Below are positions 660-23,309 of a stretch of 64,000 bases of DNA, one piece after another. The translations under genes and the position numbers were made by a program. Within the stretch, counting starts at the first letter, position 1. Every line of letters starts with the position of its first letter. The stretch lies in contig NZ_JAMTCS010000006.1 of assembly GCF_024171955.1 (NCBI RefSeq), positions 186,001 to 250,000 of the forward strand, written 5' to 3'. The notes beneath the pieces were generated by a model, which was not told the DNA's origin, did not search any database, and worked only from the letters and a program-made list of their open reading frames with translations. This stretch comes from Promicromonospora thailandica. Lineage in GTDB: Bacteria; Actinomycetota; Actinomycetes; Actinomycetales; Cellulomonadaceae.

Positions 660-1271
660 TCAGCCGGCGGACTCCGTCAGGGTGCCGTCGTGCTCCGCGT
701 ACTCGGCGCCCGTGGCCGGACATCGCCACGTGCCCGGACCCGTGCTCTCCAGGGGCACGCCCGCGCGCCCCACCCAGCGGATCCGCTTGGCGGGCACGCC
801 GGCCACGAGCGCGAAGTCGGGTACGTCCGCCGTCACGACCGCACCGGCCGCCACGGTGGCCCACCGGCCGATCGTCACCGGCGCCACGCAGACCGCACGG
901 GCGCCGATCGCGGCTCCCGTGCGCACCGTGACGCCGACGGCGTGCCAGTCGTCGGCGGTCTTGACGGCGCCGTCCGGGGTCACCGCGCGGGGGTAGAGGT
1001 CGTTGGTGAGCACCGCGGCGGGGCCGACGAACACGCCGTCCTCCAGCACGGCCGGCTCGTAGACCAGCGCGTAGTTCTGCAGCTTGCACCCGTCGCCCAC
1101 GCGGACGCCGGGCCCGACGTACGCGCCGCGGCCGACGATGCAGCCGGCGCCCACGACGGCGTCCTCCCGTACCTGGGCGAGGTGCCAGACGGTGGTGCCG
1201 GGGCCCACGGTGGAGCGCGGGTCGACGTCGGCGGTCGGCTCGACGTGGGGCGCGGTCACGGGGGTGCCCAC
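660..1271 (-). CDS. Left-handed beta-helix N-acyltransferase (WlbB/FdtC-like)
   Basis: This 203-residue protein has hexapeptide repeats (GPGTTVWHLAQV, GAGCIVGRGAYVGPGV, GDGCKLQNYALVY) typical of trimeric left-handed beta-helix acetyltransferases that N-acetylate 3-amino nucleotide sugars. Family members include WlbB, FdtC and QdtC. The N-terminal HVEPTADVDP and WHLAQVREDAVVG segments are characteristic of that group. The C-terminal 30 residues (WRCPATGAEY) look like the small zinc-ribbon-like tail often seen there. The start is a GTG at 1271, 3 nt after the ACP stop codon, so the two are probably co-translated. It is the last gene of the ligase-decarboxylase-ACP operon. It could acylate an amino sugar made by the DegT aminotransferases downstream in the cluster, or use the acyl group carried by the ACP. 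The latter is speculation. Confidence 0.75.
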   Translation of the reverse strand: MGTPVTAPHVEPTADVDPRSTVGPGTTVWHLAQVREDAVVGAGCIVGRGAYVGPGVRVGDGCKLQNYALVYEPAVLEDGVFVGPAAVLTNDLYPRAVTPDGAVKTADDWHAVGVTVRTGAAIGARAVCVAPVTIGRWATVAAGAVVTADVPDFALVAGVPAKRIRWVGRAGVPLESTGPGTWRCPATGAEYAEHDGTLTESAG

Positions 1272-1274
1272 GGC

Positions 1275-1580
1275 TCAGCGCACCCGGTCGCGGACGTAGT
1301 CGTGCAGGCTGCCCGCCGTCTCCAGCAGGCCGCCGCCGAGGTCCTCCTCGTCGACCGTGATGCCGAACCGGTCCTCGACCGCGGTCACGAGCTCCAGCAC
1401 GGCGAGCGAGTCCAGCTCCGGCAGCGTGCCGAACAGCGGGGTGGCGGCGTCGAACGTGCCGACGCGGTCCTCGATGCCGAGCGTCGTGCCGAGCACGTCC
1501 AGCACGTCGGCGAGCGTCACGCCCGCCTCCGCGGACGCCTCGGTGGTGGTGGCCGGTCCGGTGGTGGTGTCGCTGCTCAT
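1275..1580 (-). CDS. Acyl carrier protein
   Basis: This 101-residue acidic protein has the carrier-protein motif ELDSLAVLEL; Ser58 is the expected phosphopantetheine attachment site. A 20-residue Thr/Ala-rich extension precedes the four-helix core. The start ATG at 1580 has a strong ribosome site (GGGGAGAAGG). It sits between a PLP decarboxylase and an acyltransferase and downstream of an AMP-forming ligase. It therefore most likely carries the acyl or aminoacyl group activated by the ligase rather than serving fatty-acid synthesis. Comparable ACPs occur beside the ligase/decarboxylase pair of exosortase loci and as BtrI in butirosin biosynthesis. Confidence 0.85.
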   Translation of the reverse strand: MSSDTTTGPATTTEASAEAGVTLADVLDVLGTTLGIEDRVGTFDAATPLFGTLPELDSLAVLELVTAVEDRFGITVDEEDLGGGLLETAGSLHDYVRDRVR

Positions 1581-1650
1581 CCTTCTCCCCTGTCTGATGT
1601 GCGGTCTGATGTACGGGTGGTGCGCGGGTGGTTCGGTTCGGTGGCGGCGC

Positions 1651-2940
1651 TCACACGAGCACCTCCGCGGGCGCGGGGTGGCCGAGGAACGCCGTCGGGC
1701 TCGCGGTCAGGCCGTAGGCACCGGCCTGCAGGACGACGACGAGGTCGCCCGGCTCGGCGTCGGCCGGCAGCGGCACGTCGTCCGCGAGCAGGTCCAGCGG
1801 CGTGCACAGGCAGCCGACGACGGTCGCGGGCTGGGCGCCGTCGGCCGGGCCGCCGTCCACGCCGCCCGGTGTCATCCGGTCGCCGAGCAGCACCGGGTAG
1901 TTGCGCCGGATCACCTGTCCGAGGTTCCCGGACGCGGCGAGCTGGTGGTGCATGCCGCCGTCGACCACGAGGTAGGTGCGGCCGCGCGAGACCTTGCGGT
2001 CGATCACGCGGGTCACGTAGTAGCCGGCCTCGCCCACGAGGTAGCGGCCGAGCTCGAGGTGCACGTCGGCGTCCGGCAGGGCCGGCGCGAGGCGGTCGGC
2101 CACCACGGACGCGAGGCTCTCGCCCACGCGGGCCAGGTCGACGGGGCGGTCCTTGGGGAAGTAGGGGATGCCGAGGCCGCCGCCCAGGTTCACGTACCGC
2201 ACGGGGCCGGGCGCGTGCTCGGCCAGCGCGACCACGAGGTCGGCGGTGGCGCGCTGGGCGTGCGCGATCAGCTCCGCGTCGAGGTTCTGCGACCCGGCGA
2301 AGACGTGGAAGCCCGTCACGTCGGCTCCCGTGGCGCCCAGCCAGGCCAGCAGGTCGGGCACCTGCTCGGCGTCGACCCCGAACTGCTGCGGCCCGCCGGA
2401 CATGCGCATGCCCGAGCCGCGCACGGCGAAGTCCGGGTTCACGCGCACCGCCACGCGAGGGGTGACACCGAGGTCCTCGCCCGCAGCGACCACGCGGCGC
2501 GCCTCCGTCTCGGACTCGAGCTCGATCAGCACGCCCGCCGCGACCGCCGAGCGGATCTCCTGCGGCGTCTTGCCCGGGCCGGCGAAGCTGATCCGGTCCG
2601 GGTCGGTGCCCGTGTCCAGCGCGGTGTGCATCTCGTGCGCCGAGGCGACGTCGAGCGCGTCGACCAGCCCGGAGAGGTGCTGCACCACGGCGGGCATCGG
2701 GTTGGCCTTGACCGCGTAGCCGAGCCGCACGTCGCCCAGGGCGGCGCGGACCTCGGCGACGCGGTCGGTGATGCGGCGGCGGTCGTACGCGAAGAACGGT
2801 GTGGAGCCGACCCGCTCCGCGAGCCGGCGCAGCGGCACGCCGCCGACCAGGAGCTGGCCGTCGGCCACGGGGAGGTCGGGGACGCCGGGGTGGGAGGGGA
2901 TCTGCGGGGCGGCCGGGGGCGCGGGGGCGTCGGTGGTCAT
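1651..2940 (-). CDS. PLP-dependent (type III fold) amino-acid decarboxylase
   Basis: This 429-residue protein belongs to the ornithine/diaminopimelate/arginine decarboxylase family. The N-terminal TIM-barrel segment has the Schiff-base lysine in YAVKANP (Lys78), the glycine-rich phosphate-binding stretch NLGGGLGIPY, and the specificity region ending in the beta-sandwich domain (VVDGGMHHQLAASG, GCLCTPLDLL, GAYGLTASP). The subgroup resembles BtrK and the exosortase-A-associated decarboxylases more than LysA. The start ATG (2940) overlaps the ligase stop codon by 4 nt, so the two are translationally coupled; the ACP follows after 70 nt. The likely role is decarboxylation of an amino acid, perhaps while it is thioester-bound to the ACP, to yield an amine or omega-amino acyl group for the polysaccharide. 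The substrate cannot be read from the sequence. Confidence 0.8.
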   Translation of the reverse strand: MTTDAPAPPAAPQIPSHPGVPDLPVADGQLLVGGVPLRRLAERVGSTPFFAYDRRRITDRVAEVRAALGDVRLGYAVKANPMPAVVQHLSGLVDALDVASAHEMHTALDTGTDPDRISFAGPGKTPQEIRSAVAAGVLIELESETEARRVVAAGEDLGVTPRVAVRVNPDFAVRGSGMRMSGGPQQFGVDAEQVPDLLAWLGATGADVTGFHVFAGSQNLDAELIAHAQRATADLVVALAEHAPGPVRYVNLGGGLGIPYFPKDRPVDLARVGESLASVVADRLAPALPDADVHLELGRYLVGEAGYYVTRVIDRKVSRGRTYLVVDGGMHHQLAASGNLGQVIRRNYPVLLGDRMTPGGVDGGPADGAQPATVVGCLCTPLDLLADDVPLPADAEPGDLVVVLQAGAYGLTASPTAFLGHPAPAEVLV

Positions 2941-4538
2941 GCCGGCACCTCCGCCGTGACCTGCGCCCGGATGGCCGGGCGGTCCAGCTTGCCGTTGGGG
3001 TTGCGCGGCAGCGTGCCGGTCAGGCGTACCTCGGCGGGCAGCATGAACGTGGGCAGGCTCTGCCGCATCTCCTTGAGCAGCCGGTCGGTGTCGACGTCGT
3101 CGGGCGCGGCCGCGACGAGCACGATGCGCTGGCCCAGCCGGTCGTCGGGCACGCCGACGGCGACCGCCTCGCGCACCAGGCCCGTGCCCAGCGCGGCCTC
3201 CTCGACCTCCGTGGGGCTCACGCGGTACCCGGACGTCTTGATCATCTCGTCCGTGCGGCCCACGAAGTACAGGTAGCCCTCGGCGTCGCGCACCACGGTG
3301 TCGCCCGACCAGACGGCAGGCTCCGGCACCGCGCGCCACGGCTCGTCGTAGCCGGGTACGGGACGGAACCGGGCCGCCGTCCGCTCCGGGTCGTTCCAGT
3401 AGCCGAGCGCGACGAGGCTGCCGCGGTGCACCAGCTCGCCGGGCTCGTCGGGCGCGCACGGCGTGCCGTCCGGGCGCAGCACCAGCACCTCGGCGTTGGG
3501 GATCGCGCGGCCGATCGAGTCGGGCCGCTCGTCGACCTGCGCCGGGTCCAGGTAGGTGGACCGGAACGACTCGGTGAGCCCGTACATCAGGTACGGGGCG
3601 GCCGTCGGGAACAGGTCGCGCAGCTCGCTGAGCAGGGTGCGCGGCATGCGCCCGCCCGTGTTCGCGAAGTAGCGCAGCGTGCGCCGCGCGCGCTGCGGCC
3701 AGTCGGCGGTGGCGAGCTGCGTCCACAGCGGTGGTACGCCCGTGATGCCCGTGACGCCGTAGCGCTCGCACACGGCCGCGACGTCGCGCGGCAGCAGGTA
3801 GTCGAGCAGCACGGCGTGCGCGCCGACGGCGAACGCCGTGGTGAGCTGGCTCAGGCCCGCGTCGAAGCTCAGGGGCAGCACCGCGAGGAGCACGTCGTCG
3901 GCGGTGTTGCCCAGGTAGGTCGACACGCTGGTGGCGCCCACCACGAGGTTGCGGTGGGAGAGGACGACGCCCTTGGGCGCGCCCGTGCTGCCCGAGGTGT
4001 ACAGGATCGCGGCGATGTCGGTGTCGGGGCCGGGGCGCGCGAGGGCCACGTCGACCCCGTCGTCCGCCTCGTCCGTCGCAGCCGGCCAGGCCGCGACCGT
4101 CACGCCCGCGGGGACGTCGACGGAGGCGGGGTCGTCCGGCAGGTCGACGAGCAGCACGGTGGTGAGGCCGGCGTCGTCGAGCCGGTCGCGGACGGCGGCG
4201 AGCCGGCCGGCCGAGGTGACCAGCACGCGGGCCCCCGAGTCGCGCACGACGTGGGCCACCTGCCGGCCCTTGAGCAACGGGTTCACGGGCACGAAGACGC
4301 CGCCTGCCGCGGCCGCGCCCCACAGGGCGGCCACGGTCTCGAACCGCTTCTCCAGGTACACGGCCACCCGGTCGTGCCGGCCGACGCCGTGCGCGGCCAG
4401 GTGGTCCGCGGCCCGGCGCACGGCGCGCCACAGCTGCGCGTACGACAGGGTCGTGTTCCGGGCGGACAGCGCCGGGGCGTCGGGCCGGAGGCGCGCCTGG
4501 TGCTCCACAAGCTGCTGGATGGCGGTCACGAGGATCAC
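2937..4538 (-). CDS. AMP-forming acyl/aminoacyl ligase (exosortase-associated type)
   Basis: This 533-residue member of the ANL superfamily has the P-loop YTSGSTGAPKG (residues 180-190), YGLTE, the hinge region GRTDEMIKTSGYRVSPTEVE and the C-terminal catalytic lysine context NPNGKLDR. It should adenylate a carboxylic acid and transfer it to CoA or to the ACP encoded two genes downstream. Its closest recognisable relatives are the ligases found with a PLP decarboxylase and an ACP in exosortase loci. It is first in the operon ligase-decarboxylase-ACP-acyltransferase. The GTG at 4538 has no good ribosome site and a second GTG lies 12 nt downstream, so the start may be 4 residues off. Confidence 0.8.
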   Translation of the reverse strand: MILVTAIQQLVEHQARLRPDAPALSARNTTLSYAQLWRAVRRAADHLAAHGVGRHDRVAVYLEKRFETVAALWGAAAAGGVFVPVNPLLKGRQVAHVVRDSGARVLVTSAGRLAAVRDRLDDAGLTTVLLVDLPDDPASVDVPAGVTVAAWPAATDEADDGVDVALARPGPDTDIAAILYTSGSTGAPKGVVLSHRNLVVGATSVSTYLGNTADDVLLAVLPLSFDAGLSQLTTAFAVGAHAVLLDYLLPRDVAAVCERYGVTGITGVPPLWTQLATADWPQRARRTLRYFANTGGRMPRTLLSELRDLFPTAAPYLMYGLTESFRSTYLDPAQVDERPDSIGRAIPNAEVLVLRPDGTPCAPDEPGELVHRGSLVALGYWNDPERTAARFRPVPGYDEPWRAVPEPAVWSGDTVVRDAEGYLYFVGRTDEMIKTSGYRVSPTEVEEAALGTGLVREAVAVGVPDDRLGQRIVLVAAAPDDVDTDRLLKEMRQSLPTFMLPAEVRLTGTLPRNPNGKLDRPAIRAQVTAEVPA

Positions 4539-4576
4539 GGTAAAGCGCGCACAAGCCTTTTCGGCAGGCCGATGAC

Positions 4577-4604
4577 GGGTGAATAAGGCCCTGAAGAGGG
4601 TGAA
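4577..4604 (-). promoter_or_regulatory. PHO-box-like repeats upstream of the ligase operon
   Basis: GGGTGAA occurs at 4577-4583 and 4598-4604 (21-nt spacing). Read on the minus strand, a degenerate TTCAGGG lies between them in about the same 10-11-nt phase, giving three tandem units. They lie 39-66 nt upstream of the ligase start. A similar three-unit arrangement is seen at 25901-25930. Confidence 0.45.
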
Positions 4605-4779
4605 CCACGGACGTGGCGAAAAATGCCGCCGACCTGCCCTGTCGGGGTCGTTCTGTCAATCCCCGTGGTGATGTGCACGAGGTGAATGTCCGTGCCAGTG
4701 CGGAACGTCATCCGCCGCCGGAGGTGAAATGCATAGTGAATTGCGCGTCACATCGCTTCTTTCACCTTGCCGGTGCTTT

Positions 4780-5670
4780 TCACCACGGCACCTGCGTGAG
4801 CTCGCTGTAGAGGTAGGAGACGGCCTCCGGCGGCTGGCTGGTGCGGCTCAGGTACATGGCCGGGCGCTGCGTGCGCAGCGGCACGGAGTGCCAGGGACGA
4901 GGGCCGGAGACCCGGGTCTGCAGCAGGGTGAACGGCAGCCCGTGGGCGAGCAGCACGTGCCGGTACACCGCCGGCGCCGCGGCGCGGAACACGTCGGGGT
5001 CGCTCACGTGGAGCACCGACGCGAACAGCCGCAGCCCCTTGCGCCGCACGGTGCGGAACACCACCCAGCACGGCCGCCCGTCCACCACGGCGACGAGGTG
5101 GTGCGCCGCCGGGGAGCCGGCGTGGTCGCGGTAGGCGGCGAGGTCGGCTCCCGTGAGCAGTGCCTCGATGTTCGCGTGCCCCGTGACCAGGCGCGTTCCG
5201 CGCCGCGCGGGCAGCGGCAGGTTGACGGCGAGGGCGCCCGAGGTGTCCAGCCGGCGGAAGCCGAGCCGCTCGTTGAGGGGTACCACGGTGCCGCTCGGCG
5301 ACAGGTCGGTGAGCTCGCGGTCGCGCTGCGCGAGCATGGCGCGCACGAGGCGCAGCGAGTGGCCGCGGTACTCCTCGAGCACGCACCACGCGGCGAGGTT
5401 GCACACGGGCCGGTCCCGGCCGGGCCCGCCCGTCTCGGAGTAGAGCGCGGCGTACACCCCCACCACGAGCCCGTCGGCCTCCAGGAGGAACCCGTGGTCG
5501 GGGTGGGTCGTGCTCCACGTGGGGCGCAGGGACCGCGCCCACTGCGCGGGGGTCAGCGTGCCGTCGAGATGCACGCTGAGGAATTCGCCCGCCCGCGGCA
5601 GATCGTCGGTGGTGATCGGTGCCAGGCGCACCCGGGGGGAATCGTTCACGAGGGCGAGTATGGTCCCCAT
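4780..5670 (-). CDS. GNAT-family N-acyltransferase-like protein
   Basis: This 296-residue protein reads from ATG 5670, which has a GAGGAC ribosome site; an upstream in-frame start would add 25 poorly structured residues. The N-terminal half has a GNAT core: an acidic beta strand region (GFLLEADGLVVGVYAALY), then CNLAAWCVLEEYRGHSLRLV, which fits the acetyl-CoA-binding motif A (V-x-x-x-x-R-G-x-S). The C-terminal half (about residues 150-296) has no domain I recognise and ends in a Tyr/Ser-rich tail. It is transcribed in the same direction as the ligase operon, with a 241-bp gap that has PHO-box-like repeats. It may transfer the activated acyl group onto a sugar, but the acceptor is unknown. Confidence 0.6.
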   Translation of the reverse strand: MGTILALVNDSPRVRLAPITTDDLPRAGEFLSVHLDGTLTPAQWARSLRPTWSTTHPDHGFLLEADGLVVGVYAALYSETGGPGRDRPVCNLAAWCVLEEYRGHSLRLVRAMLAQRDRELTDLSPSGTVVPLNERLGFRRLDTSGALAVNLPLPARRGTRLVTGHANIEALLTGADLAAYRDHAGSPAAHHLVAVVDGRPCWVVFRTVRRKGLRLFASVLHVSDPDVFRAAAPAVYRHVLLAHGLPFTLLQTRVSGPRPWHSVPLRTQRPAMYLSRTSQPPEAVSYLYSELTQVPW

Positions 5671-5763
5671 GAAATGTCCTCGGAACGCCTCGTCGCGGGT
5701 GAAAGGGGCGCACCGGGGCCTTTTCATCCGGTGCTTTCCTGTCACATGGTGCCGGATGCATTT

Positions 5764-9406: not shown

Positions 9407-10302
9407 CGGGGCAGCACCGCGTCGCTCGCGCCGAGCACCGGCGGGCGCAGGCTCGGGCGCAGGAGCGCCCGCAGCGTCGGCCAGGACGCCCTGTGGCCCA
9501 GCAGGCCCCGGCGCAGCTCCACGAGGAGGGTCGCGCCGTAGTACAGCCAGGCCGCACCGGTGCCGCGCCGCCGCCGGATCAGCCGCACCCGGTTCAGCAT
9601 CTGCATCGTGTGCGTCGCGTGGCTCGTGCCCGAGGCACCCCCCACGTGCATGCCGCCCGCCTCCGGGGTGTAGACCGAGGCCCACCCGCGGTCCCAGGCG
9701 CGGAGCGCGAAGTCCGTCTCCTCGGAGTAGAGGAAGTACGACTCGTCGAAGCCGCCCAGCTCGTCGTAGCACGCGCGGTCCACGAGCCAGATGGCGCCCA
9801 CCGCCCAGTCCACGGTCCGCTCGGTCCGGTACTCGCGCGGGTCGTCGATCCGCTCCGCGAGCATCGGCAGGCCCGTGAAGCTCAGCCCGCCGGCGCGGGC
9901 CACGGTCGGGGTGCGGCGCAGCGTCGGCGACAGGCTGCCGTCCTCCTCGCGCGTGCGCGGCACCACGACGCCGACGCCCGGGCGGCGCAGCACCTTCAGC
10001 ATCCGCGGCACGGCCTCGGCGTCGAGCTCCACGTCCGGGTTGAGCACCAGCACGGCGGACGTCTCGGGCGCGTGCCGCACCGCCCGGTTCATGCCCGCGC
10101 CGTAGCCGTCGTTGACGCTCTCCACCACCGTGCAGTCGCCGCGGCCGCGCAGCAGCGCCAGGGTGCCGTCCGTGGACCCGTTGTCCACCACGACCGTGAC
10201 GTAGGGGACGTCGCCGAACGCCGCGGGCAGGCTGTCCAGCAGGGCGCCGACGTGCCGCTCGCTGTTGTAGGTCACGACCACCGCTGCCACCTCGGCGCCC
10301 AT
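9403..10302 (-). CDS. GT2-family glycosyltransferase (rhamnosyltransferase-like)
   Basis: This 299-residue protein has the start VAAVVVTYNSERHVGALLDSL, then VVVDNGSTDGT, the donor site VLVLNPDVELD, and the acceptor-loop motif FDESYFLYSEETDFALRA. These are typical of WbbL/RfbN-type rhamnosyltransferases and related GT2 enzymes. The start ATG (10302) shares one base with the stop codon of the deacetylase gene upstream. The sugar specificity is a family-level guess. Confidence 0.85.
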   Translation of the reverse strand: MGAEVAAVVVTYNSERHVGALLDSLPAAFGDVPYVTVVVDNGSTDGTLALLRGRGDCTVVESVNDGYGAGMNRAVRHAPETSAVLVLNPDVELDAEAVPRMLKVLRRPGVGVVVPRTREEDGSLSPTLRRTPTVARAGGLSFTGLPMLAERIDDPREYRTERTVDWAVGAIWLVDRACYDELGGFDESYFLYSEETDFALRAWDRGWASVYTPEAGGMHVGGASGTSHATHTMQMLNRVRLIRRRRGTGAAWLYYGATLLVELRRGLLGHRASWPTLRALLRPSLRPPVLGASDAVLPR

Positions 10303-10955
10303 CAGCGCAGCCCCTTCACGAAGGTCCGGGCCGAGTCCGCGAGCCGCGTGGTGTACCGGTCGCCGTGCCGGAGCCACGTGGCGACGTCGTCGGCGGTGTC
10401 GTGCGCGCGCAGGCTGAACCGCGCCTGCCGCCACGTGCCCGGGCGGGCGAGCGCGCGGTCGCTCGTGTACACGCGGTCGTAGCGCAGGCGGCGCAGCGCG
10501 GTCAGCGTGCCGCGGTCGTACCGGCCCAGCGGGCAGGCCGCCGTCCGCACGGGCTCGCCGAGCACGTCCTGCAGCAGGTCGCGGGCCACCACGAGCTCCT
10601 CGTGCTGCTCGGCACGGCTCAGCCGGCGCCAGACGCGGTGGTGCATGCCGTGCGACCCGACACCCATGCCGGCCGCGCGGAGCCCGCGCACGTCGTCCGC
10701 CGAGAGCGAACCGGGCTCGCCGAGGCGGCCCGCGATGACGAAGAACTCCGCCGTCCGGCCGCGGTCGGCGAGCTCGGGCAGCGCCACGTCGACGTCGGAG
10801 GAGTTGCCGTCGTCGAACGAGAGCCGGACGTCCGGACGCTCGCCGACCAGGTCGAGCACGCGGCGGAACGTGTCGGCGCCGATCCAGTACGCGGCCTCCG
10901 CCGTCGGCACGCCGTGCGGGGGCGCGCCGATGCCGTGAAAGCAGAGATTGATCAT
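10302..10955 (-). CDS. Polysaccharide deacetylase (NodB-like)
   Basis: This 217-residue NodB-homology protein opens MINLCFHGIG, has motif 1 as SFDDG (catalytic Asp and metal-binding Asp) and motif 2 as GSHGMHHR (the two metal-binding histidines), followed by a helix and CPLGRYD. No signal peptide or membrane segment is visible, so it may act in the cytoplasm on lipid-linked intermediates or leave by another route. The start ATG 10955 has only a weak ribosome site. The 70-bp gap to the polymerase gene upstream contains a PHO-box-like pair. Confidence 0.85.
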   Translation of the reverse strand: MINLCFHGIGAPPHGVPTAEAAYWIGADTFRRVLDLVGERPDVRLSFDDGNSSDVDVALPELADRGRTAEFFVIAGRLGEPGSLSADDVRGLRAAGMGVGSHGMHHRVWRRLSRAEQHEELVVARDLLQDVLGEPVRTAACPLGRYDRGTLTALRRLRYDRVYTSDRALARPGTWRQARFSLRAHDTADDVATWLRHGDRYTTRLADSARTFVKGLR

Positions 10956-11025: not shown

Positions 11026-12339
11026 TCATTCGGGATCCCGTAGCGCGCCGGCCAGACCGGTCACCAGAAAGAGGGCGCCCATGGTCATCGGAAAGGCGAA
11101 GGCGTCGAAGAAGGAGAGGCTGACGAAACCCACCACCACCGAGGCGATCAGGGCGAGCGCGAGGTCGTGCGTCCGCTGGTCGGTGAGGGCCGTGCGCGCG
11201 CGGGCACGCAGCAGCACCCGGACCGCCGCGACCCCGATGCCCGCGAACAGGACGGTGCCCACCACGCCGACCGTGACGGCCAGGAGCAGGTACTGGTTGT
11301 CGAAGATCCGGTAGGTCGGCAGGAACGTGCCGAGCCCTCGCCCGAAGAGCGGGTCGCGCACGATGAACTCGCCCGCCAGCGAGAACGACCCCGTGCGGGA
11401 GGCGACGCTCGGATCCTCCGAGGCCCCCGAGAACAGCCCGAGGATCGAGTTCAGCATCCCGGGCGCGACCACGATCCCGGTCACGCCGCCCGCCGCGGTG
11501 ACGCCCAGCATCCGGCGCCGGCGCGGCCCCTTCCAGCCGATCAGCAGGATCACCAGGCCCAGGGCTGCGCCCACGTAGGCGGACCGCGAGCCCGTCAGCG
11601 GCAGCAGCATCAGCGACGCCGCGGCGGGCGCCCACCGCAGCAGCGCCGGCCGGTGCGTGTGCTCGAAGCCGACGTGGAGACCGAGCGGCAGCAGCATCGT
11701 GACCAGCACGCCGAACTCGATCGGGTGCGTCGCCGTGCCCTGCGGGCGGATCCGGCCGTTGCGCTCGCCCAGCTCGTACGGCGAGGTCAGGGTCAGGCCG
11801 GGCACGTTGAGCCGGTCCACGAACAGCTCACCCAGCACGAACTGGGCGATGCCCAGCACGGCCATCGCGCCGCCGGCCAGCGCGAGCCGCCACACGAGCA
11901 GGTCGCGCCGGTCGGCCGAGACGATCCCGTCGTGCGCCAGCAGCAGCGTGCCCGACCAGGACAGCACCGACAGGAGGGCGACGTCGGCGGGGCTGACCTC
12001 GCTCGACACGATCGGCCGCGACATGGCGATCACGTACGAGAGGCCGACGCTGAGCAGGAACAGCCCGAGCGCCACCCGCACGAGCCGGGCACCGCCGAGG
12101 CCGGGCCGGGCCTTGCCGACACCGATGAGCACCCACAGCAGCAGGGCGGCCAGCCCGGCCACCATCGACGGCGCCCCCGCGCTGCCGAGCGGCCCGAGGA
12201 CCAGCTTCGACGGCACGGCGAACAGCAGCACGAGGTAGACCGAGAGCCACGTGACGACGTCGAACGGCAGCCGGCGCCGGAACATCGGCGGGGGCGGCGC
12301 CGCGTGCCGCTGGGTGGCCGGCGGCCGCGTCTGCGTCAC
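11026..12339 (-). CDS. Wzy-type O-antigen polymerase/ligase
   Basis: This 437-residue polytopic protein has about 10-12 membrane segments. The large outer loop contains GRIRPQGTATHPIEFGVLV, and a later segment has GRGLGTFLPTYRIFDNQYL, both typical of the Wzy_C/WaaL family. It should join lipid-linked repeat units or attach glycan at the outer membrane face. The start is a GTG at 12339 whose GTGA overlaps the stop codon of the Wzz-like gene; this coupling of polymerase with a chain-length regulator supports both calls. Confidence 0.8.
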   Translation of the reverse strand: MTQTRPPATQRHAAPPPPMFRRRLPFDVVTWLSVYLVLLFAVPSKLVLGPLGSAGAPSMVAGLAALLLWVLIGVGKARPGLGGARLVRVALGLFLLSVGLSYVIAMSRPIVSSEVSPADVALLSVLSWSGTLLLAHDGIVSADRRDLLVWRLALAGGAMAVLGIAQFVLGELFVDRLNVPGLTLTSPYELGERNGRIRPQGTATHPIEFGVLVTMLLPLGLHVGFEHTHRPALLRWAPAAASLMLLPLTGSRSAYVGAALGLVILLIGWKGPRRRRMLGVTAAGGVTGIVVAPGMLNSILGLFSGASEDPSVASRTGSFSLAGEFIVRDPLFGRGLGTFLPTYRIFDNQYLLLAVTVGVVGTVLFAGIGVAAVRVLLRARARTALTDQRTHDLALALIASVVVGFVSLSFFDAFAFPMTMGALFLVTGLAGALRDPE

Positions 12340-15276: not shown

Positions 15277-16512
15277 TCACAGGCCGGACGTCGCCCAGCG
15301 CAGGTAGGTCAGCTCGGTCCGTGCACGGCGCACGACCCGGCGCACGGCGGCGCCGCGCGGGTGCCGACCGGTCCGCGCCGCCCGCTGCGCGCGCCCCGCG
15401 ATGCGCGCGGTCGCGAACCAGGCGGCCGACTTCGGCCACGACTCGGCCGCCAGGTCCAGGTACTGCGCCGGCGACTCGCCGCGGTCGGCGGCCGCGGCGG
15501 CGTACCGCAGGGCGTCGCGGGCCAGCGCGGCGCGCGCCCGGTCGTGCAGGTCGCGGGCGTCCGGGAGCCGGTCGCCCACGTTGGCGAACAGCCGGTCGTA
15601 GGCGTCGGCGCGGGCGCGCAGGTCGAGCAGCGCGCCGGACCCCTCGTTCACGCTCAGGCTCCCGGCGTGCTCGCGGTGCAGCGCCTGGTCGGCGCCGCCC
15701 ACGTACGCGACGTCGCTGACGGCGGCGAGCCGCAGCCACATCTCGACGTCCATCGTGAAGCTCAGCTCCGGGTCCAGCGGCCCCACGTCGTGCAGCAGCG
15801 CGGACCGCATGACCACCTCGGGGGAGGTGATGCAGCTGACGCCGGTACGGCACCGCTCGGCGAGCCAGGCGTGCCCGTCCCAGACCGTCCAGGTGAGCCC
15901 GCCGAGGGCGGGCCGCGGGTCGGTGCCGTCGTCGAAGTGCTGCGGGTGGCCGTAGACCAGGCCCACCTCGGGGTGCTGCTCCAGGACCGCCGCCGCCCGC
16001 GCGAGCGCGCCCGGCGGCAGCAGGTCGTCGGCGTCGAGCCGCACCACGAGCTCGCCCGTGCTCTGCGCCCAGCCGCGGTTGAACGACTCGACCTGCCCGG
16101 CGTTGTGCTCGTTGGCGACCACGCGCACCTGCGGGTACCGCCCGGCCAGGCCGTGCGCGACGGCGAGGCTGTCGTCCGTCGAGGCGTCGTCGACCACGAT
16201 CACCTCGACCTCCACGCCCTCCTGCGTCACCAGGCTGCCGACCGTCTCCGGCAGGAAGTGGCCGTAGTTGTAGCAGGGCACCACCACGGAGACCGTCGGG
16301 CGGTGGTGCGGCGCCGCGGGCGCGGCGCGCCGCACCTCGCGCGGCCGCAGCGGCGACCGCACCCACGAGCCGAGCACCCGCACCAGGCCGCCGGTGGCGC
16401 CGCGGTCCGGGCCCGGGGCGCCGGTCGCGTTCCGGTCCACCCAGGCGCGCCACGCGGTCACCGCGCGGTCGAGCGTCCCCGGGTGAGCGGCCGGGGCCGC
16501 GGGGGCGCTCAT
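15277..16512 (-). CDS. GT2-family glycosyltransferase
   Basis: This 411-residue GT-A protein has about 70 extra N-terminal residues, then PTVSVVVPCYNYGHFLPETV, EVIVVDDASTDDS and the DxD in VVRLDADDLLPPGA, and an acceptor region SFTMDVEMWLRLA. The C-terminal 100 residues are Arg/Ala-rich and helical. ATG 16512 overlaps the aminotransferase stop by 4 nt. Confidence 0.85.
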   Translation of the reverse strand: MSAPAAPAAHPGTLDRAVTAWRAWVDRNATGAPGPDRGATGGLVRVLGSWVRSPLRPREVRRAAPAAPHHRPTVSVVVPCYNYGHFLPETVGSLVTQEGVEVEVIVVDDASTDDSLAVAHGLAGRYPQVRVVANEHNAGQVESFNRGWAQSTGELVVRLDADDLLPPGALARAAAVLEQHPEVGLVYGHPQHFDDGTDPRPALGGLTWTVWDGHAWLAERCRTGVSCITSPEVVMRSALLHDVGPLDPELSFTMDVEMWLRLAAVSDVAYVGGADQALHREHAGSLSVNEGSGALLDLRARADAYDRLFANVGDRLPDARDLHDRARAALARDALRYAAAAADRGESPAQYLDLAAESWPKSAAWFATARIAGRAQRAARTGRHPRGAAVRRVVRRARTELTYLRWATSGL

Positions 16513-17717
16513 CCGACCACGGCGCGGTCGCGCCCGCCCGGCGCCCCGGCCCGGGCCGTGCGGACCGCCGCGTGCAGCGCGCCGACGACCCGCTCCTGCT
16601 GCGCCGCCGTGATGCCGGGGAACATCGGCAGCGACAGGATCTCGCCCGCGTGCGCCTCGGCCCGGGGCGCCGTGCCCGGGCCGAGGCCCAGGTGCGCGGT
16701 GGCGGGCAGCAGGTGCACGGGTGCGGGGTAGTGGATGCCGTGGCCGATACCCGCGGCGGACAGGGCCTCCGACACCGCGGCCCGCCCCGGCACGCGCACC
16801 ACGTACAGGTGCCACACGTGCACCGCCCCGGGTACCTCGCGGGGCACCACGACCTCGGGCACGTCCGCGAACGCCTCGGCCAGCAGCGCGGCGTACCGGC
16901 CGGCGGCCGCCGACCGGAGGGCGTTCCAGCCGTCCAGGCGGGTCAGCTTCACCGACAGCGCCGCGGCCTGCAGCGCGTCGAGGCGCGAGTTCGTCCCGAC
17001 CTCCAGGTGCTCGTACCGGCCGACGCCGCCGTGGTTGCGCAGGCGCCGGGCACGCAGGGCGACGTCGTCCCGCGACGTGAGGACCGCGCCGCCGTCGCCG
17101 AACGCGCCCAGGTTCTTGCCCGGGTAGAAGCTCGTGGCGGCCACGTCGCCCGCGCCGCCCGAGCGCAGGCCGTCACGGCTCGCGCCCTGCGACTGGGCGG
17201 CGTCCTCGACCAGCAGCACGTCGGGACCGACCACCTCGCGCAGCCGCGCCACCGGCGCCATCTGCCCGTACAGGTGCACGGCCACCACGGCGCGGGTGCG
17301 CGGCGTCAGGTGCGCGGCCACGTCCTGCGGGTCGATCAGGTAGTCGTCGTCGACGTCGACGGGCACGAGCGTCGCGCCGCAGCGCAGCACCGCCTCCGCC
17401 GTCGCGAAGAACGTGTTGGCCGGGACGATCACCTCGTCGCCCGGGCCGATCCCGGCCGCCTGCAGCGCGATCTCCAGCGCGTCCGTGCCGTTGCCGACGC
17501 CGACGGCGTGCCGCGCGCCCGTGTGCTCGGCGAGCTCCCGCTCGAACCGGTCCACCGCCGGGCCCAGCACGAACGCGGACGTGCGCAGGATCTCGTCCCA
17601 GCGCTCGCGGACCTCGGGCGCGACCTCGTCGGTCTGCGCCTGGAGGTCGAGGAAGGGCACGGGCTGGTCTGCGGCCGCGGGCTGGGCGGGCGCCGCGTTC
17701 GTCGTGGTCTCGGTCAT
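16509..17717 (-). CDS. DegT/DnrJ/EryC1 sugar aminotransferase (FdtB/QdtB-like)
   Basis: This 402-residue PLP enzyme has the family start PVPFLDLQAQ, GNGTDALEIALQAAGIGPGDEV, the Asp in LLVEDAAQSQGA, and the PLP lysine in SFYPGKNLGAFGDGGA. It should transaminate a keto nucleotide sugar using glutamate. The segment VWHLYVVRVPGR and the IHYPAPVHL ending match the 3-aminotransferase group (FdtB, QdtB, DesV). Such enzymes usually work with a 3-N-acyltransferase like the one at 660-1271. The dTDP-glucose dehydratase and ketoisomerase that would make the substrate are not in the window. It overlaps both neighbours by 4 nt. Confidence 0.85.
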   Translation of the reverse strand: MTETTTNAAPAQPAAADQPVPFLDLQAQTDEVAPEVRERWDEILRTSAFVLGPAVDRFERELAEHTGARHAVGVGNGTDALEIALQAAGIGPGDEVIVPANTFFATAEAVLRCGATLVPVDVDDDYLIDPQDVAAHLTPRTRAVVAVHLYGQMAPVARLREVVGPDVLLVEDAAQSQGASRDGLRSGGAGDVAATSFYPGKNLGAFGDGGAVLTSRDDVALRARRLRNHGGVGRYEHLEVGTNSRLDALQAAALSVKLTRLDGWNALRSAAAGRYAALLAEAFADVPEVVVPREVPGAVHVWHLYVVRVPGRAAVSEALSAAGIGHGIHYPAPVHLLPATAHLGLGPGTAPRAEAHAGEILSLPMFPGITAAQQERVVGALHAAVRTARAGAPGGRDRAVVG

Positions 17718-19300
17718 CGGGTCGTTCCTCTCGGTCGGGTGGCCGGGGCGGCGGGCCCGGCGGCGTGTGCCGGTTCCGGGACCGGCGCCGCACCGGCGCC
17801 GGGGTCGTCGTCCGTCGTGCGTGCGGCGGGGTCCTGGACGGCGGGGTCCTGGACGGCGGGGTCGTCGTCCGCGGGCCCCGGGCCGTCGAGCGCCGCGCGG
17901 GCGGCGCGCCAGCGCGGCACGGCCCAGGCGAGCGTGGTGGCGAGGTAGACGACGAGGGTGACCACGCCGCCGAGGAGCCCGCCGAGCAGCGGGTCCCCGG
18001 CGCGGCCCGCGACGAGGATGCCCAGGGCGACCGCGCCCGCCCCGGCGAGGGCGGGCACCGCGAGCGCGAGGGCGAGCGCGCCCACCTCGTCGCGCGAGCG
18101 GCGCAGCAGCACCAGGTAGGCGGGGACCAGCACCCCGACGCCGACGGCGGCCTGCGCCACGCCCACGCCGAGGCTGCCGCCGAGCCGCGCACCCGCCAGC
18201 ACGGCGGGCACCAAAGCGGCGAGCCACACGACCTGCACCACGAGCACGCCGCGCGAGCGGCCCAGCGCGTAGAGGTAGCCGGCCACGACGTCGGCCAGCA
18301 CGCGGACCGCCCCGGCGGCGGCCAGGGGCACGAGGATCCCGGCGGCCGGCTCCCACCGGGCGCCGTAGACCAGCACGACCACGGGGTGGGCCAGGGCCGC
18401 GAGCATCGCCGCGGCCGCGACGACGGCCCACCAGACCGGCCCGAGCAGCGGTACGAGGGTGGCGCGCGCCCGCTCCCGGACCTGGGAGAACGCGGGCAGG
18501 GTCACCGAGCGCAACGCCGAGCCCACCAGGGTCATGGGCCAGGTCGAGATGTTCGCGGCGAGCACGTAGTAGCCGAGCTCCACGGCGCCCGCGGCGTTCC
18601 CCAGCACCACGCGGTCGACCGACAGCAGCACCCAGGAGAGCAGGTTCGCCGCCGCGACCGGCAGCCCGAAGGCCAGCACGGACCGCGCCACGGTGGGGTC
18701 CCACGAGAGGCGCAGGCCCGTGCGCGCGATCCAGAACTGCAGCGCGACGCCGCACGCCTGCCCGGCCACGCGCCCCACGGCCAGGCCGATCAGCCCGTGC
18801 CCGAGGGCCGCGAGCACGAGCGTGACCACGGCGCCGACGCCGAAGTCGACGGCGGTCGAGCGGAACAGGCCGCGCTGGTCCAGCCGCCGCTGCAGCGCGG
18901 CGAACGGGACCACGCCGAGGCCGGCGAGCAGGAACGTGCCCGCGAGGATCGCGATCGGTCCGGCCGCGCCCGGCCCGCCCATCGCGGTCGCGAGCGCGGG
19001 CGCGGCGAGCGCGGTGCCGACGGCGAGGGTGCTGCCCGTGGCCAGGCCGAGCACCGCGACCGGCCCGGTGCGGCGCTCGAAGTCCGGGCTGCGCACCAGG
19101 TCGGCGCTCAGCCCGAGGTCGGCCAGGGCCATGACCACGCTCTGCACCGTGAGTGCGATCGCGTACAGGCCGAACTCCTCGGGCGACACGATGCGGGCGA
19201 TGACGATGCCGAGCCCGAGGTTGCCGAGCCGCACCACCAGCGTGCCGGTGGTGCTCCAGCGCAGGGCACGGGCGACGCGCCCGCTCAGCTCCTCAGCCAT
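17714..19300 (-). CDS. Wzx-type polysaccharide flippase (MOP superfamily)
   Basis: This 528-residue protein starts MAEELSGRVARALRWS and has about 12-14 membrane segments, with the early motif IARIVSPEEFGLYAIALTV typical of RfbX/TuaB/Wzx exporters. It should flip lipid-linked repeat units across the membrane for polymerisation by the Wzy protein. The last 60 residues form an acidic tail with repeated DPAVQ units encoded by a short DNA repeat (about 17835-17865). The ATG at 19300 overlaps the upstream glycosyltransferase by 8 nt and the stop overlaps the aminotransferase start by 4 nt. Confidence 0.85.
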   Translation of the reverse strand: MAEELSGRVARALRWSTTGTLVVRLGNLGLGIVIARIVSPEEFGLYAIALTVQSVVMALADLGLSADLVRSPDFERRTGPVAVLGLATGSTLAVGTALAAPALATAMGGPGAAGPIAILAGTFLLAGLGVVPFAALQRRLDQRGLFRSTAVDFGVGAVVTLVLAALGHGLIGLAVGRVAGQACGVALQFWIARTGLRLSWDPTVARSVLAFGLPVAAANLLSWVLLSVDRVVLGNAAGAVELGYYVLAANISTWPMTLVGSALRSVTLPAFSQVRERARATLVPLLGPVWWAVVAAAAMLAALAHPVVVLVYGARWEPAAGILVPLAAAGAVRVLADVVAGYLYALGRSRGVLVVQVVWLAALVPAVLAGARLGGSLGVGVAQAAVGVGVLVPAYLVLLRRSRDEVGALALALAVPALAGAGAVALGILVAGRAGDPLLGGLLGGVVTLVVYLATTLAWAVPRWRAARAALDGPGPADDDPAVQDPAVQDPAARTTDDDPGAGAAPVPEPAHAAGPAAPATRPRGTTR

Positions 19301-20471
19301 GCGCCGGCCTCTCGCGCAGGCGCCCGCGGGCGGTGTCGCGGGCGACGAGGGCGGCCGTGCGGGCGAGGGCGCGCGCCGAGCGGCGGCCGGCCGCGGGGGC
19401 CTCGCGGTAGATCTGCTCCAGGTGCTGCGCCGACGACGCGAGCGAGAACCGGTCGGTGACGACCCGCTGGCCGAAGGTGCCGAGGGTCGCGCGCAGCAGC
19501 GGGCGGCGCACGAGCGGCTCGAGCGCGTCGGCCAGCGCCGCGACGCCGTCCCCACCCGACCCGTACCAGCCCTGCTCCAGGAACACGGGCAGGCTCTGCT
19601 CGTCGAGGCGGCGCCAGAAACCGCGCTCGCCCTGGACCACCACGGGCTTGCCGAAGGCCATGCCCTTGAGCACCGAGCTGCCCATGCCGAGCACCACGTC
19701 CGCGGCCTCGTACGCGGGGCGGGGGTCGTCCAGCGCCCCGGCGACGACGACGGCGCGCCGTCCCGCGGCGGCGTTGATCTCGGCGGCGCGCGCGGCGACG
19801 TCGGCCGAGCGTGGGCCCTCGCCCGCCACCAGCAGGCACAGCGCACCGGTCCACCCGCCGCGGCCCACGAGCTCCATCGCCTCGAGCACGCCCGCGGTCT
19901 TGTCGAGGTCGTCGGACAGCCGGCAGACCACCGACAGCACCACGTCCTGGGGGCCGAACCCCCAGCGGTCCCGCGCCGCGGCGCCTCCGCCGGTGCCGGG
20001 CGCGTTCGCCGTCGTGTCGATGGGCGGCTCCATGAGCCGCACGTCGCGATGCCGGGCGGCCGCCTCCTGCGCGAGCAGACGCGTGCCCACGATGAGCGGC
20101 ACGTGCCGGGGGATGTAGCCCGACACGTACATCGACAGCGTGGTCACCACCGCGGGCGTGCCGAGCAGCAGGTGCGGCCCGAGCGCGACGTCGATCGCGG
20201 GGCCCCACTCGTAGGCGTGCACGACGTCGGCGCGCAGCCGGCGCACCGCCGAGACGGCGTGCGCCATGTTCCGGGGCGACGGCCAGGTCAGGTGCGTCGG
20301 CAGCGTCTCCAGCTCCAGGCCGAACCCGCGGGCGACGTCCCACAGCGCGCCGCCGGGCGGGGCGAGCACCACGACGTCGTGCCCCCGCGCGGCGGTCTCG
20401 CGGGCCAGCTCCAGCGCGTTGAGCTGGCTGCCGCCGATCTCCATGTGGTGCACGTACACGACGACCCTCAT
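19293..20471 (-). CDS. GT4-family glycosyltransferase
   Basis: This 392-residue GT-B protein opens MRVVVYVHHMEIGGSQLNAL, with the GGSQ loop of GT4 enzymes, and has VVCRLSDDLDKTAGVLEAM as donor-domain start and a GMGSSVLKGMAFGKPVVV motif in place of the classical E-x7-E. The ending is Arg-rich. It is coupled by 4-nt overlap to the NeuD-like acetyltransferase gene upstream. Confidence 0.8.
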   Translation of the reverse strand: MRVVVYVHHMEIGGSQLNALELARETAARGHDVVVLAPPGGALWDVARGFGLELETLPTHLTWPSPRNMAHAVSAVRRLRADVVHAYEWGPAIDVALGPHLLLGTPAVVTTLSMYVSGYIPRHVPLIVGTRLLAQEAAARHRDVRLMEPPIDTTANAPGTGGGAAARDRWGFGPQDVVLSVVCRLSDDLDKTAGVLEAMELVGRGGWTGALCLLVAGEGPRSADVAARAAEINAAAGRRAVVVAGALDDPRPAYEAADVVLGMGSSVLKGMAFGKPVVVQGERGFWRRLDEQSLPVFLEQGWYGSGGDGVAALADALEPLVRRPLLRATLGTFGQRVVTDRFSLASSAQHLEQIYREAPAAGRRSARALARTAALVARDTARGRLRERPAHG

Positions 20472-21136
20472 CGCCGGCCTCCCACGGCGGTGCGCGGGGT
20501 CGCGCGGGGGGTCAGGGCACGCGCGGGCACGCCGGCCCAGGTCTCGCCGTCCGGCACGTCGGCCAGGACGACGGCGCCCATGCCCACGACGGCGCCCGCG
20601 CCGATCCGGACGCCGGGGCGCACGGAGGCGTTCATGCCGAGGTAGGCCGCGCGGCCCACCCGCACGCCGCCGCCGAGGGACACCCCGGCCGCGAACGTCG
20701 CGAAGTCCTCCACCACGCAGTCGTGGGTCACGGTCACCCCGGGCATCGCGACCACGTGCGCGCCCAGCCGCGCGTCGGCCGTGATCGTCACGCCGGCCAG
20801 CAGCACCGCGCCCTCGCCCACGGGGCACGTGCCGGGGTTGCGCACCGACGGGTCGACGACGCTCCCGAAGCGCGGGCCGTGGGTCAGCCGCTCGTGCACG
20901 GCGGCGCGGGTGCGGCTGGGTCCGACGCACAGCACGAGCTCGGCGTCCGGGTGGGCGGCCGCCTCGGAGACGGGGCCCAGCACGGGCACGCCGCCCACCG
21001 ACGGCGGCAGGTCGGCGTGCCGGTCGTCGAGCACGCCCAGCACGGGCCGCCCCGCCTCCCGCGCCACGGCCAGCGCCTCGCGCGCGAGCCCGCTCGCACC
21101 GACCAGCAGCAGCGGCCCGCCCCACGCCGCTCCCAT
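20468..21136 (-). CDS. NeuD/PglD-family sugar acyltransferase
   Basis: This 222-residue protein has an N-terminal Rossmann-like PglD_N domain (LLLVGASGLAREALAV), then a left-handed beta-helix of hexapeptide repeats (VGEGAVLLAGVTI, GAHVVAMPGVTVTHDCVVEDF with the catalytic-type His). It should acetylate an amino sugar. ATG 21136 has GGGGAG at the right distance; a GTG at 21142 overlaps the upstream stop and could also be used. It follows a DegT aminotransferase, the same pairing as PglE/PglD in bacillosamine synthesis. Confidence 0.8.
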   Translation of the reverse strand: MGAAWGGPLLLVGASGLAREALAVAREAGRPVLGVLDDRHADLPPSVGGVPVLGPVSEAAAHPDAELVLCVGPSRTRAAVHERLTHGPRFGSVVDPSVRNPGTCPVGEGAVLLAGVTITADARLGAHVVAMPGVTVTHDCVVEDFATFAAGVSLGGGVRVGRAAYLGMNASVRPGVRIGAGAVVGMGAVVLADVPDGETWAGVPARALTPRATPRTAVGGRR

Positions 21137-21138
21137 GG

Positions 21139-22293: not shown

Positions 22294-23309
22294 GCGGTCA
22301 CCCCCGCGCCCGCCGCGACCCAGTTGCGGTCCTCGATGCGGCCCAGCATCTCCTGCGGGCTCTCCGGGCGGCCGCGGAACCACTCCACCAGGTCGGCCAC
22401 GCCCTGCTCGAAGCTGGTGCGCGGCTCGAAGCCGGTCAGCTCCCGCACCAGCGTGTTGTCCACGAGCAGGCGGCGCACGTCGCCCGGGCGGGCCTCCAGG
22501 CGCTCGGGCTCGAGGTCGGGCCGGCCGGCGAGGCGGGCGACCGTGGAGACCAGGTCGTTGATGGTCACCTCGGCGCCGGAGCCCACGTTGACGGTGCGGC
22601 CGACGGCGGCGTCGCACCCCGCGATGTCGGCCAGCGCCCGGGCGGTGTCGGTGACGTGCAGGAAGTCGCGCGTCTGCTCGCCGTCGCCGTACACGAAGGC
22701 GGGCAGGCCGCACAGCGCGCGCACGATCGTGCGGGGCAGCACCTCGCCGCTGTCGCCCTCGAAGTGGCTGCGCGGGCCGAAGGTGTTGAACGGGCGCACC
22801 ACCACGACGGGCATGCCGTGGGTGCGGTACGCGGCCCGGGCGTACGCCTCGCCCGCGAGCTTGGAGCCGCCGTAGACCGTCTCGGGCCAGGTGGGGTGCT
22901 TCTCGTCCATGGGGGCGTACTGCGCGGTGCCGAACACCTCGCTGGAGCTGACGTGCACGAACCGGCCGACGCCGGCGGCCCGGGCCCGCTCGAGCAGCTC
23001 GAGCGTCGCGGTCGCGTTGACCTCGTGGTTCTCGCGCGGGTCGTGCAGGCTGTGCCGCACGCCGAGGCAGGCGAGGTGGAACACGACGTCCGCGTCGTCG
23101 ACCAGGGCGAGCGCGGCGGCGCTGCGGACGTCCTCGGCCACGAGCCGCACGCGGGCGTCGTCCGCCACGTTCTCGCGCCGCCCGTTGACGAGGTTGTCGA
23201 CGACGGTGACCGAGGCGGCGTCGCGGCGCAGCAGCTCGTCCACGAGGTGGCTGCCGATGAACCCGGCGCCGCCGGTGACCAGCACGCGCGCGTCCTGCAG
23301 GGCGGTCAT
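22290..23309 (-). CDS. NAD-dependent epimerase/dehydratase
   Basis: This 339-residue extended SDR protein has the NAD site VLVTGGAGFIGSHLV, the SSS of the catalytic triad (VHVSSSEVFGT) and YGGSK (YxxxK), and RPFNTFGPRSH. It is most similar in motif to UDP-glucose/GlcNAc 4-epimerases and 4,6-dehydratases. The Asp-Glu pair of dehydratases is not obvious after the serines, so epimerase or 4-keto chemistry is uncertain. It sits between a Gfo/Idh/MocA oxidoreductase and a DegT aminotransferase, so it takes part in making an amino sugar. Confidence 0.8.
   Translation of the reverse strand: MTALQDARVLVTGGAGFIGSHLVDELLRRDAASVTVVDNLVNGRRENVADDARVRLVAEDVRSAAALALVDDADVVFHLACLGVRHSLHDPRENHEVNATATLELLERARAAGVGRFVHVSSSEVFGTAQYAPMDEKHPTWPETVYGGSKLAGEAYARAAYRTHGMPVVVVRPFNTFGPRSHFEGDSGEVLPRTIVRALCGLPAFVYGDGEQTRDFLHVTDTARALADIAGCDAAVGRTVNVGSGAEVTINDLVSTVARLAGRPDLEPERLEARPGDVRRLLVDNTLVRELTGFEPRTSFEQGVADLVEWFRGRPESPQEMLGRIEDRNWVAAGAGVTA

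Follow-up and report, generated by a model that had tools for sequence, protein, structure and literature searches.

In the Dlt system, which D-alanylates teichoic acid, an AMP-forming amino acid ligase and a free carrier protein decorate a surface polymer with amines. A 64,000-nt stretch of the 5.38-Mb genome of the soil actinobacterium Promicromonospora thailandica (G000:C6:186001-250000, the window in what follows) carries a set of genes with a similar look: an AMP-forming ligase, a pyridoxal phosphate (PLP) decarboxylase, an acyl carrier protein (ACP), and a GNAT-like acyltransferase, surrounded by a Wzx/Wzy-type exopolysaccharide (EPS) cluster that runs on to ~25900. With modest confidence we read these four genes as a beta-alanyl supply-and-transfer module serving the exopolysaccharide. 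Dlt differs from the module in making a D-Ala ester, in using a membrane acyltransferase, and in having no decarboxylase.

The closest described systems are biosynthetic. In AFC-BC11 (AfcQ-AfcK-AfcP) and bolagladin (BolO-BolC-BolN) biosynthesis in Burkholderia, L-aspartate on a free-standing ACP is decarboxylated to beta-alanine, as tested for Afc and proposed for Bol, and the beta-alanyl-ACP feeds a lipopeptide; AfcQ activates L-aspartate, not beta-alanine, and loads AfcK in vitro, iteratively, the AfcK-bound residue is decarboxylated to beta-alanine by AfcP, and activation at the beta-carboxyl is an inference of the AfcQ authors (PMC12186527). The vicenistatin (VinN-VinL-VinO) and fluvirucin (FlvN) systems likewise combine AMP-forming loading of an aspartate-type amino acid with subsequent on-ACP decarboxylation (PMC11284099), but VinN handles 3-methylaspartate and the product primes a polyketide synthase. 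The butirosin set BtrJ-BtrI-BtrK shares the decarboxylase type and the carrier-protein logic; it differs in its loader BtrJ, which has the ATP-grasp fold (PMC4431377), and in its substrate, glutamate, BtrK acting on glutamyl-BtrI (PMC7857480).

The window ligase (2937-4538, minus strand), a predicted L-aspartate (beta-carboxyl):ACP ligase, resembles AfcQ and VinN rather than BtrJ. Specifically, i) it scores 727 bits against a curated cut-off of 592 for TIGR03098, and is thus a member of that family, and it is a PF00501 AMP-binding protein, unlike the ATP-grasp loader of the butirosin set; ii) the best solved relative of its 171-residue pocket stretch, at 80 bits compared with 63 for the next protein, is 3wv4/3wvn, identified as VinN in PMC11253843; iii) VinN uses D230, S299, and R331 to bind the amino and alpha-carboxyl groups (PMC7756342), and these residues align with ligase D226, T294, and R326 (the structure chain is numbered 16 higher), so that an Asp for the amino group and a Ser/Thr plus Arg for the alpha-carboxylate are all in place; iv) D226 and R326 recur in 86 of 87 ligase rows and K517 in all 87, the odd row out being a wrongly clustered 907-residue protein of locus L052; and v) the AfcQ-like ligase of a Burkholderia arboris locus (L143) also passes TIGR03098, at 631 bits, and equals the window ligase at 13 of 13 chosen pocket positions and at 280 of 514 aligned residues (~54%). 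The gene content of L143 (AMP-binding protein, carrier protein, weak ACP synthase III, PLP decarboxylase, ligase, citrate synthase, and methyltransferase) agrees with the afc cluster as described in PMC12186527, and R309 and K501 of its ligase are spaced like Arg311 and Lys503 of AfcQ; the two ligases are presumed to be orthologous.

An AfcQ-like pocket combined with AfcQ chemistry implies that the module should make beta-alanyl-ACP. In the first step, which we hold to be very probable, the ligase would adenylate the beta-carboxylate of L-aspartate and load it onto the phosphopantetheine of the ACP. Carrier loading of L-aspartate appears well supported by these comparisons; and since the ligase is AMP-forming and VinN/AfcQ-like, the predicted substrate is L-aspartate and the predicted product beta-alanyl-ACP rather than gamma-aminobutyryl (GABA)-ACP. 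A glutamate version of the pathway, in which the ligase would load the gamma-carboxylate of L-Glu and the decarboxylase, like BtrK in butirosin synthesis, would make GABA-ACP for the same transfer, takes encouragement from BtrK being the closest solved structure to the window decarboxylase and from the action of BtrK on a glutamyl carrier, but is unlikely given a ligase pocket that matches that of the AfcQ-like protein and is VinN-like, and given that butirosin itself relies on an ATP-grasp loader. The original prediction for this locus, made from the letters of the window, had applied the BtrI/J/K logic; its carrier loading followed by decarboxylation to an omega-amino acyl group is supported, but with BtrJ an ATP-grasp protein and the ligase VinN/AfcQ-like, the group is predicted to be Asp-derived beta-alanyl.

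The adjoining PLP decarboxylase (1651-2940, minus strand), of the diaminopimelate (DAP)/BtrK type, is predicted to act on isoaspartyl-ACP. It belongs to TIGR03099 (552 bits, curated cut-off 478) and scores below the cut-off of the DAP decarboxylase (lysA) family TIGR01048 (222 vs 298 bits); BtrK is its nearest solved structure at 226 bits, compared with 151 for the next (6knh) and 149 for a DAP decarboxylase. The catalytic-type residues K78, H212, R299, and Y409 and the CTPxD motif (C379-T380-P381-x-D383) are invariant in 109 of 109 rows, and H331 is present in 100 of the 109. In the second step, only slightly less probable than the first, this BtrK-like enzyme would strip the alpha-carboxylate from the ACP-bound residue to give beta-alanyl-ACP, and on-carrier decarboxylation of this kind seems fairly supported by the sequence comparisons. 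An ordinary acyl-CoA ligase next to a diaminopimelate-type decarboxylase, both working on free substrates, is what the current database name ‘acyl-CoA ligase’ would suggest, and the original prediction had named a fatty acyl-CoA ligase with a decarboxylase of free DAP or ornithine as the case that would overturn it; the near-universal D226 and R326, the AfcQ-like protein in the same family, AfcQ having been tested as an aspartate loader, and the sub-cut-off lysA score together make this very improbable. In a Burkholderia cenocepacia record (L141), members of TIGR03098 and TIGR03099 are both above their cut-offs and, by reading, do not lie in an EPS cluster.

The third component, the ACP (1275-1580, minus strand), passes the PF00550 cut-off (27.5 vs 20.8 bits) and carries Ser58 in an LDSL motif. 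The ligase, the BtrK/exosortase-group decarboxylase, and the ACP with its DSL serine were all correctly recognized in the original prediction. The gene-neighbourhood comparison it called for bears out the triple: among the related loci, taken as the best 80 of 225 decarboxylase relatives, the ligase adjoins the decarboxylase in 78 and an ACP of the module kind is found in 72. Only two PF00550 matches occur in the whole genome, the module ACP being one of them, and together with the adjacency of ligase and decarboxylase in 78 of 80 loci this argues that the grouping of the genes is not due to chance. Five genes, in transcription order GNAT, ligase, decarboxylase, ACP, and a left-handed beta-helix (LbH) sugar N-acyltransferase (660-1271), all lie on the minus strand; ligase and decarboxylase overlap by 4 bases, and gaps of 70 bases separate decarboxylase from ACP, 3 bases ACP from LbH, and 241 bases the upstream GNAT from the ligase. 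A terminator-like site falls in the last of these gaps, but two such sites in the stretch compared with 1.3 expected is near chance. The idea of a single coupled operon that includes the beta-helix gene is consistent with strand, overlap, and the 3-base gap, but the adjacency of the LbH gene is confined to Promicromonospora plus one weak match elsewhere.

That adjacency matters for the identity of the transferase. The original prediction had counted the beta-helix acyltransferase in the operon and set the GNAT beside it; the widely conserved transferase of the module is the GNAT, not the beta-helix enzyme. The GNAT gene (4780-5745 on the minus strand with a GTG start, or 4780-5670 with an ATG start that suits the family better) is single-copy in the genome (A3 profile, 405 bits) and is predicted to encode a beta-alanyl-ACP-dependent N-acyltransferase. 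A relative is found within 3.5 kb of the decarboxylase in 55 of the 80 loci and anywhere in the locus in 62, and the GNAT profile and the decarboxylase mark exactly the same 11 of 59 relatives. The protein has no Pfam or NCBIfam match at 0.01; Acetyltransf_1 is reached, weakly, at E 0.1 or better by 9 of 45 members of the family (best 4e-4; window member 0.05), and the GNAT profile matches the GNATs of a distant family of sets (f19, see below) at E 6e-6 over 128 columns. Kinship with FemAB was considered and set aside, hhalign giving a probability of 0.2% against an alignment of 4 FemAB-like f19 proteins, with TIGR03019 itself outside the comparison. In one genome (G030, locus L149) a GNAT relative adjoins an ACP on a 9.5-kb contig that also encodes Asn-synthase and 2-oxoacid dehydrogenase E1/E2 but neither the ligase nor the decarboxylase; this suggests that the GNAT partners the ACP, and a different source of acyl groups perhaps feeds this type of transferase at the locus.

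The LbH protein has Hexapep repeats and is nearest, among solved structures, to the lipopolysaccharide acetyltransferase 3mqg (139 bits), which we take to be WlbB, and we assume the window protein to be WlbB/WbpD-like; WlbB-type enzymes use acetyl-CoA. It could be that this enzyme acylates an amino sugar nucleotide from beta-alanyl-ACP while the GNAT does something else: its gene starts 3 bases past that of the ACP, its nearest solved relative is a sugar acetyltransferase, 3-dehydrogenase-like and DegT genes are present in the cluster, and relatives at 74-78% occur in two Actinoplanes loci. We think this unlikely, as 8 of 80 loci have an LbH relative no more than 3.5 kb from the decarboxylase (7 Promicromonospora and the one weak match) and 13 of 80 have one anywhere at >=60 bits (the 7 Promicromonospora, L086, L123, L078, L082, L089, and L114, of which L078 is cut at its edge and L082, L089, and L114 are at 40-45%), compared with 62 of 80 for the GNAT, and as acetyl-CoA is the donor of its presumed class. 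The LbH as a core partner of the module was accordingly rejected, with the Actinoplanes relatives as exceptions. Returning to the GNAT, we consider it slightly on the probable side that it would take beta-alanyl from the ACP and pass it to an amino group. We infer steps 1 and 2 from homology to enzymes tested in vitro and step 3 from gene conservation only.

What the module serves is suggested by its company. Relatives of the window deacetylase, Wzy, or Wzx are carried by 64 of the 65 full-length loci that are not of nonribosomal peptide synthetase or polyketide synthase (NRPS/PKS) type, compared with 0 of 6 NRPS/PKS-type loci, which sustains the preference for a glycan role expressed in the original prediction. 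Wzy and the module go together in 13 congeners (with P. thailandica itself counted), 10 having both and 3 having neither; a genome of another genus (G429) has the module without a close Wzy. A small-molecule or lipid product of the N-acyl-beta-alanine type, made beside EPS genes by happenstance, would fit the occurrence of the ligase and decarboxylase families in NRPS/PKS-type clusters (with Condensation or KS domains) of Streptomyces, Actinacidiphila, and Herbidospora, and of this ligase type in bolagladin and AFC-BC11 biosynthesis; the split in EPS gene relatives between 64 of 65 and 0 of 6 loci, and the agreement of module and Wzy in 13 of 13 congeners, make it improbable. The six NRPS/PKS-type loci (L104, L108, L110, L121, L134, and L136) were set apart by reading, with Condensation or KS domains confirmed in L104, L108, L121, and L134; the assignment of L110 and L136 is by reading only, the single scanned L136 protein being a helicase. 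Each has ligase and decarboxylase except L121, which has the decarboxylase alone, and in a quick decarboxylase tree the six sequences form one clade (SH-aLRT 99). An acyl-CoA dehydrogenase-like gene was seen, by reading, in L108, and the products of these loci are perhaps dehydro-beta-alanine compounds.

For the beta-alanyl module of the window, the acceptor would be a sugar amine in a lipid- or nucleotide-linked repeat unit, either freed by the polysaccharide deacetylase at 10302-10955 (minus strand, PF01522, 66.5 bits) or made by the amino-sugar genes, a proposal on which we are evenly balanced. Deacetylase relatives occur in 51 of 80 loci; by our own measure 0 of 48 have a hydrophobic N-terminus, as is the case for the window protein, H[GST]xxH is present in 48 of 48, and [SA]FDDG in 39 of 48. 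Without a hydrophobic N-terminus, the deacetylase would share the cytosol with the ACP and the GNAT. A published parallel is the Wbp/Vim pathway for the linking sugar of type IX secretion, in which a putative deacetylase and VimA, an N-acyltransferase-like protein, are proposed to add a serine or glycine residue to a diamino sugar, and in which cargo proteins are amide-bonded to the sugar (PMC7468200). The same source notes that VimA matches an exosortase-associated FemAB family, and its authors speculate on an amino-acid-modified sugar in exosortase systems; the residue there is seryl or glycyl, and a carrier-protein source for the amino acid is not mentioned in the available excerpt (PMC7468200). 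By analogy, the module may be the source of the activated amino acid, beta-alanine, for a similar sugar modification. The exopolysaccharide would then bear beta-alanyl groups whose free amines are positively charged; and because AfcQ is iterative, short oligo-beta-alanyl chains are possible.

Several observations weigh against the pathway as proposed. Within the ligase pocket, VinN F231 and K330 are replaced by A227 and F325 (as they are in the L143 AfcQ-like protein), and the choice of Asp over Glu is a prediction from sequence. The afc decarboxylase of L143 is only a distant relative (97 bits to TIGR03099 vs the cut-off of 478), and the decarboxylation step therefore rests on BtrK-like sequence and adjacency; tblastn found no GNAT in L141-L143. 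A profile search of solved structures with the GNAT gave no relative at E 1, and 18 of 80 loci are without GNAT, comprising the 6 NRPS/PKS-type loci and 12 others, several on short contigs. Relatives of the LbH protein lie ~9 kb from the module in Actinoplanes loci L086 (78%) and L123 (74%), by which a link between LbH and the pathway may still exist. Of the 65 full-length loci, 15 have no deacetylase relative. Finally, general literature searches found no glycan structure for these bacteria, and nothing useful on beta-alanine in polysaccharides appeared among the matches listed.

The rest of the EPS cluster comprises glycosyltransferases, the deacetylase, a Wzy-type polymerase/ligase (11026-12339, PF04932), a Wzx-type flippase (17714-19300, PF13440), two DegT sugar aminotransferases (one at 16509-17717, PF01041, 336 bits), a PglD-like acetyltransferase, and proteins like 4,6-dehydratases and UDP-GlcNAc 3-dehydrogenase, the last an oxidoreductase at 23306-24376 that scores 137 bits to NF040723, below the cut-off of 450; the genes with coordinates are on the minus strand. 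The PglD-like acetyltransferase, a DegT aminotransferase, and the 4,6-dehydratase-like gene form a bacillosamine-type set at 20468-23309. Further along the window, 32618-35980 encodes a protein of 1120 residues that includes a mycosin-like serine protease domain (165 bits to TIGR03921, short of the cut-off of 279).

Among the best 80 of 225 decarboxylase relatives, 7 are 81-88% identical, all from Promicromonospora, and the next is at 73%. A survey of 396 genomes of the phylum found the decarboxylase at 1e-80 in 24, above the family cut-off in 2, and the GNAT in 3, namely those 2 and G030; the remaining 22 decarboxylase genomes represent one distant family, f19, and each of the 7 f19 loci sampled (of 22) has an ACP and a GNAT other than those of the window. 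Of these f19 ligase-decarboxylase-ACP-GNAT sets (L050-L056), L050 and L056 have confirmed FemAB genes and L050 also MurJ, so that beta-alanine might there enter a peptidoglycan bridge. Four Nocardioides loci (L084, L088, L111, and L112) keep ligase, decarboxylase, and ACP without GNAT, and an Asn-synthase gene (L112) or an NAD-synthase-like gene (L084) lies upstream. On plasmids, ligase relatives were found in 131 records at 1e-60 (75 Sinorhizobium) and decarboxylase relatives in 68 at 1e-40 (27 Sinorhizobium); pSymB of S. meliloti ml28 keeps the order GNAT, ligase, decarboxylase, ACP among glycosyltransferases, its GNAT being 48% identical and annotated hypothetical, and a capsule-type cluster of Aureimonas AU20 combines GNAT, ligase, and decarboxylase with a divergent ACP. 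In the quick decarboxylase tree, 5 of 7 rhizobial sequences lie among actinobacterial ones, with the 2 Devosia sequences outside, a nesting that speaks for horizontal transfer. The decarboxylase of Stenotrophomonas maltophilia P13 contig_9 (L126) nests among Microbacterium, which probably reflects a wrong label on the contig, contamination, or a recent transfer.

Both enzyme families are known from exosortase loci, and XrtA/PEP-CTERM EPS loci resemble the window in their TIGR03098 ligase, TIGR03099 decarboxylase, ACP, deacetylase, and glycosyltransferases, as in Sphingomonas parapaucimobilis (602 bits for the ligase and 504 for the decarboxylase). They differ in that no exosortase (PF09721) was found in the P. 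thailandica genome at E 1, as the original prediction had supposed, nor FemAB TIGR03019 at 1e-20, the GNAT standing in its place; an exosortase-coupled reading was rejected for this genome on the PF09721 result. A search for PF09721 in 30 genome entries with module relatives (f19 included, L074 left out, and at least one genome entered twice, L059 = G400) gave 2 partial matches covering 93-95 of 254 positions, in Promicromonospora sukumoe at 30.5 bits, where the cut-off is 25.7, and in Saccharothrix at 21 bits.

Among 398 genomes from the phylum to which a Rhizobium relative belongs, the ligase was found at 1e-120 in 53, 29 of them above cut-off, and exosortase, at 1e-10, in 26 of those 29, in 3 of the 9 examined among the 24 that fall below it, and in 4 of 20 tested without a ligase match. 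In 20 proteobacterial loci, where pocket positions were read from tblastn stretches, ligase positions 226, 318, 325, 326, 327, and 517 (D226, R326, and K517 included) are kept in all 20, position 294 holds either T or S, and at position 227 there are 15 Y and 5 A; an ACP relative is present in 18 of 20 and a GNAT relative in 1 (G580). FemAB TIGR03019 follows exosortase exactly in the 21 proteobacterial genomes tested, the 18 with exosortase having it and the 3 without (G580, G464, and G869) lacking it, and it occurs in 0 of 11 module-bearing genomes of the window's family; GNAT is present in G580 and G464 (locus L087), both without exosortase, and was not found in the 20-kb stretch of G869. 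Because FemAB tracks exosortase and the GNAT is found elsewhere, the two appear to serve as alternative partners for a single supply unit, and exosortase systems may use beta-alanyl groups too.

A broader scheme, which we put forward as doubtful, would have TIGR03098-TIGR03099-ACP supply beta-alanyl groups to surface glycans in general: where exosortase is present, a FemAB-set beta-alanyl amine on the EPS would be the nucleophile that exosortase joins to PEP-CTERM proteins, and in exosortase-free actinobacteria and rhizobia the GNAT would make the same decoration as cationic charge, a Dlt-like device. In one open-licence collection of papers we found none naming TIGR03098 or TIGR03099 by accession and no beta-alanyl reading of these families, and among the matches listed only an incidental mention linking exosortase with the ligase, decarboxylase, or ACP.

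NCBI names these families ‘acyl-CoA ligase’ and ‘decarboxylase, exosortase A system-associated’, and the genes are known mainly by the exosortase company they keep. The new link is that an AfcQ-like aspartate:ACP ligase passes the TIGR03098 cut-off with the same pocket residues, which turns the family name into a concrete and cheaply assayable guess at function. If that guess is right, many soil and plant-associated bacteria, including Sinorhizobium meliloti strains (pSymB), would attach beta-alanine to their exopolysaccharide by way of a carrier protein, and there would be a testable candidate for the acceptor that exosortase uses.

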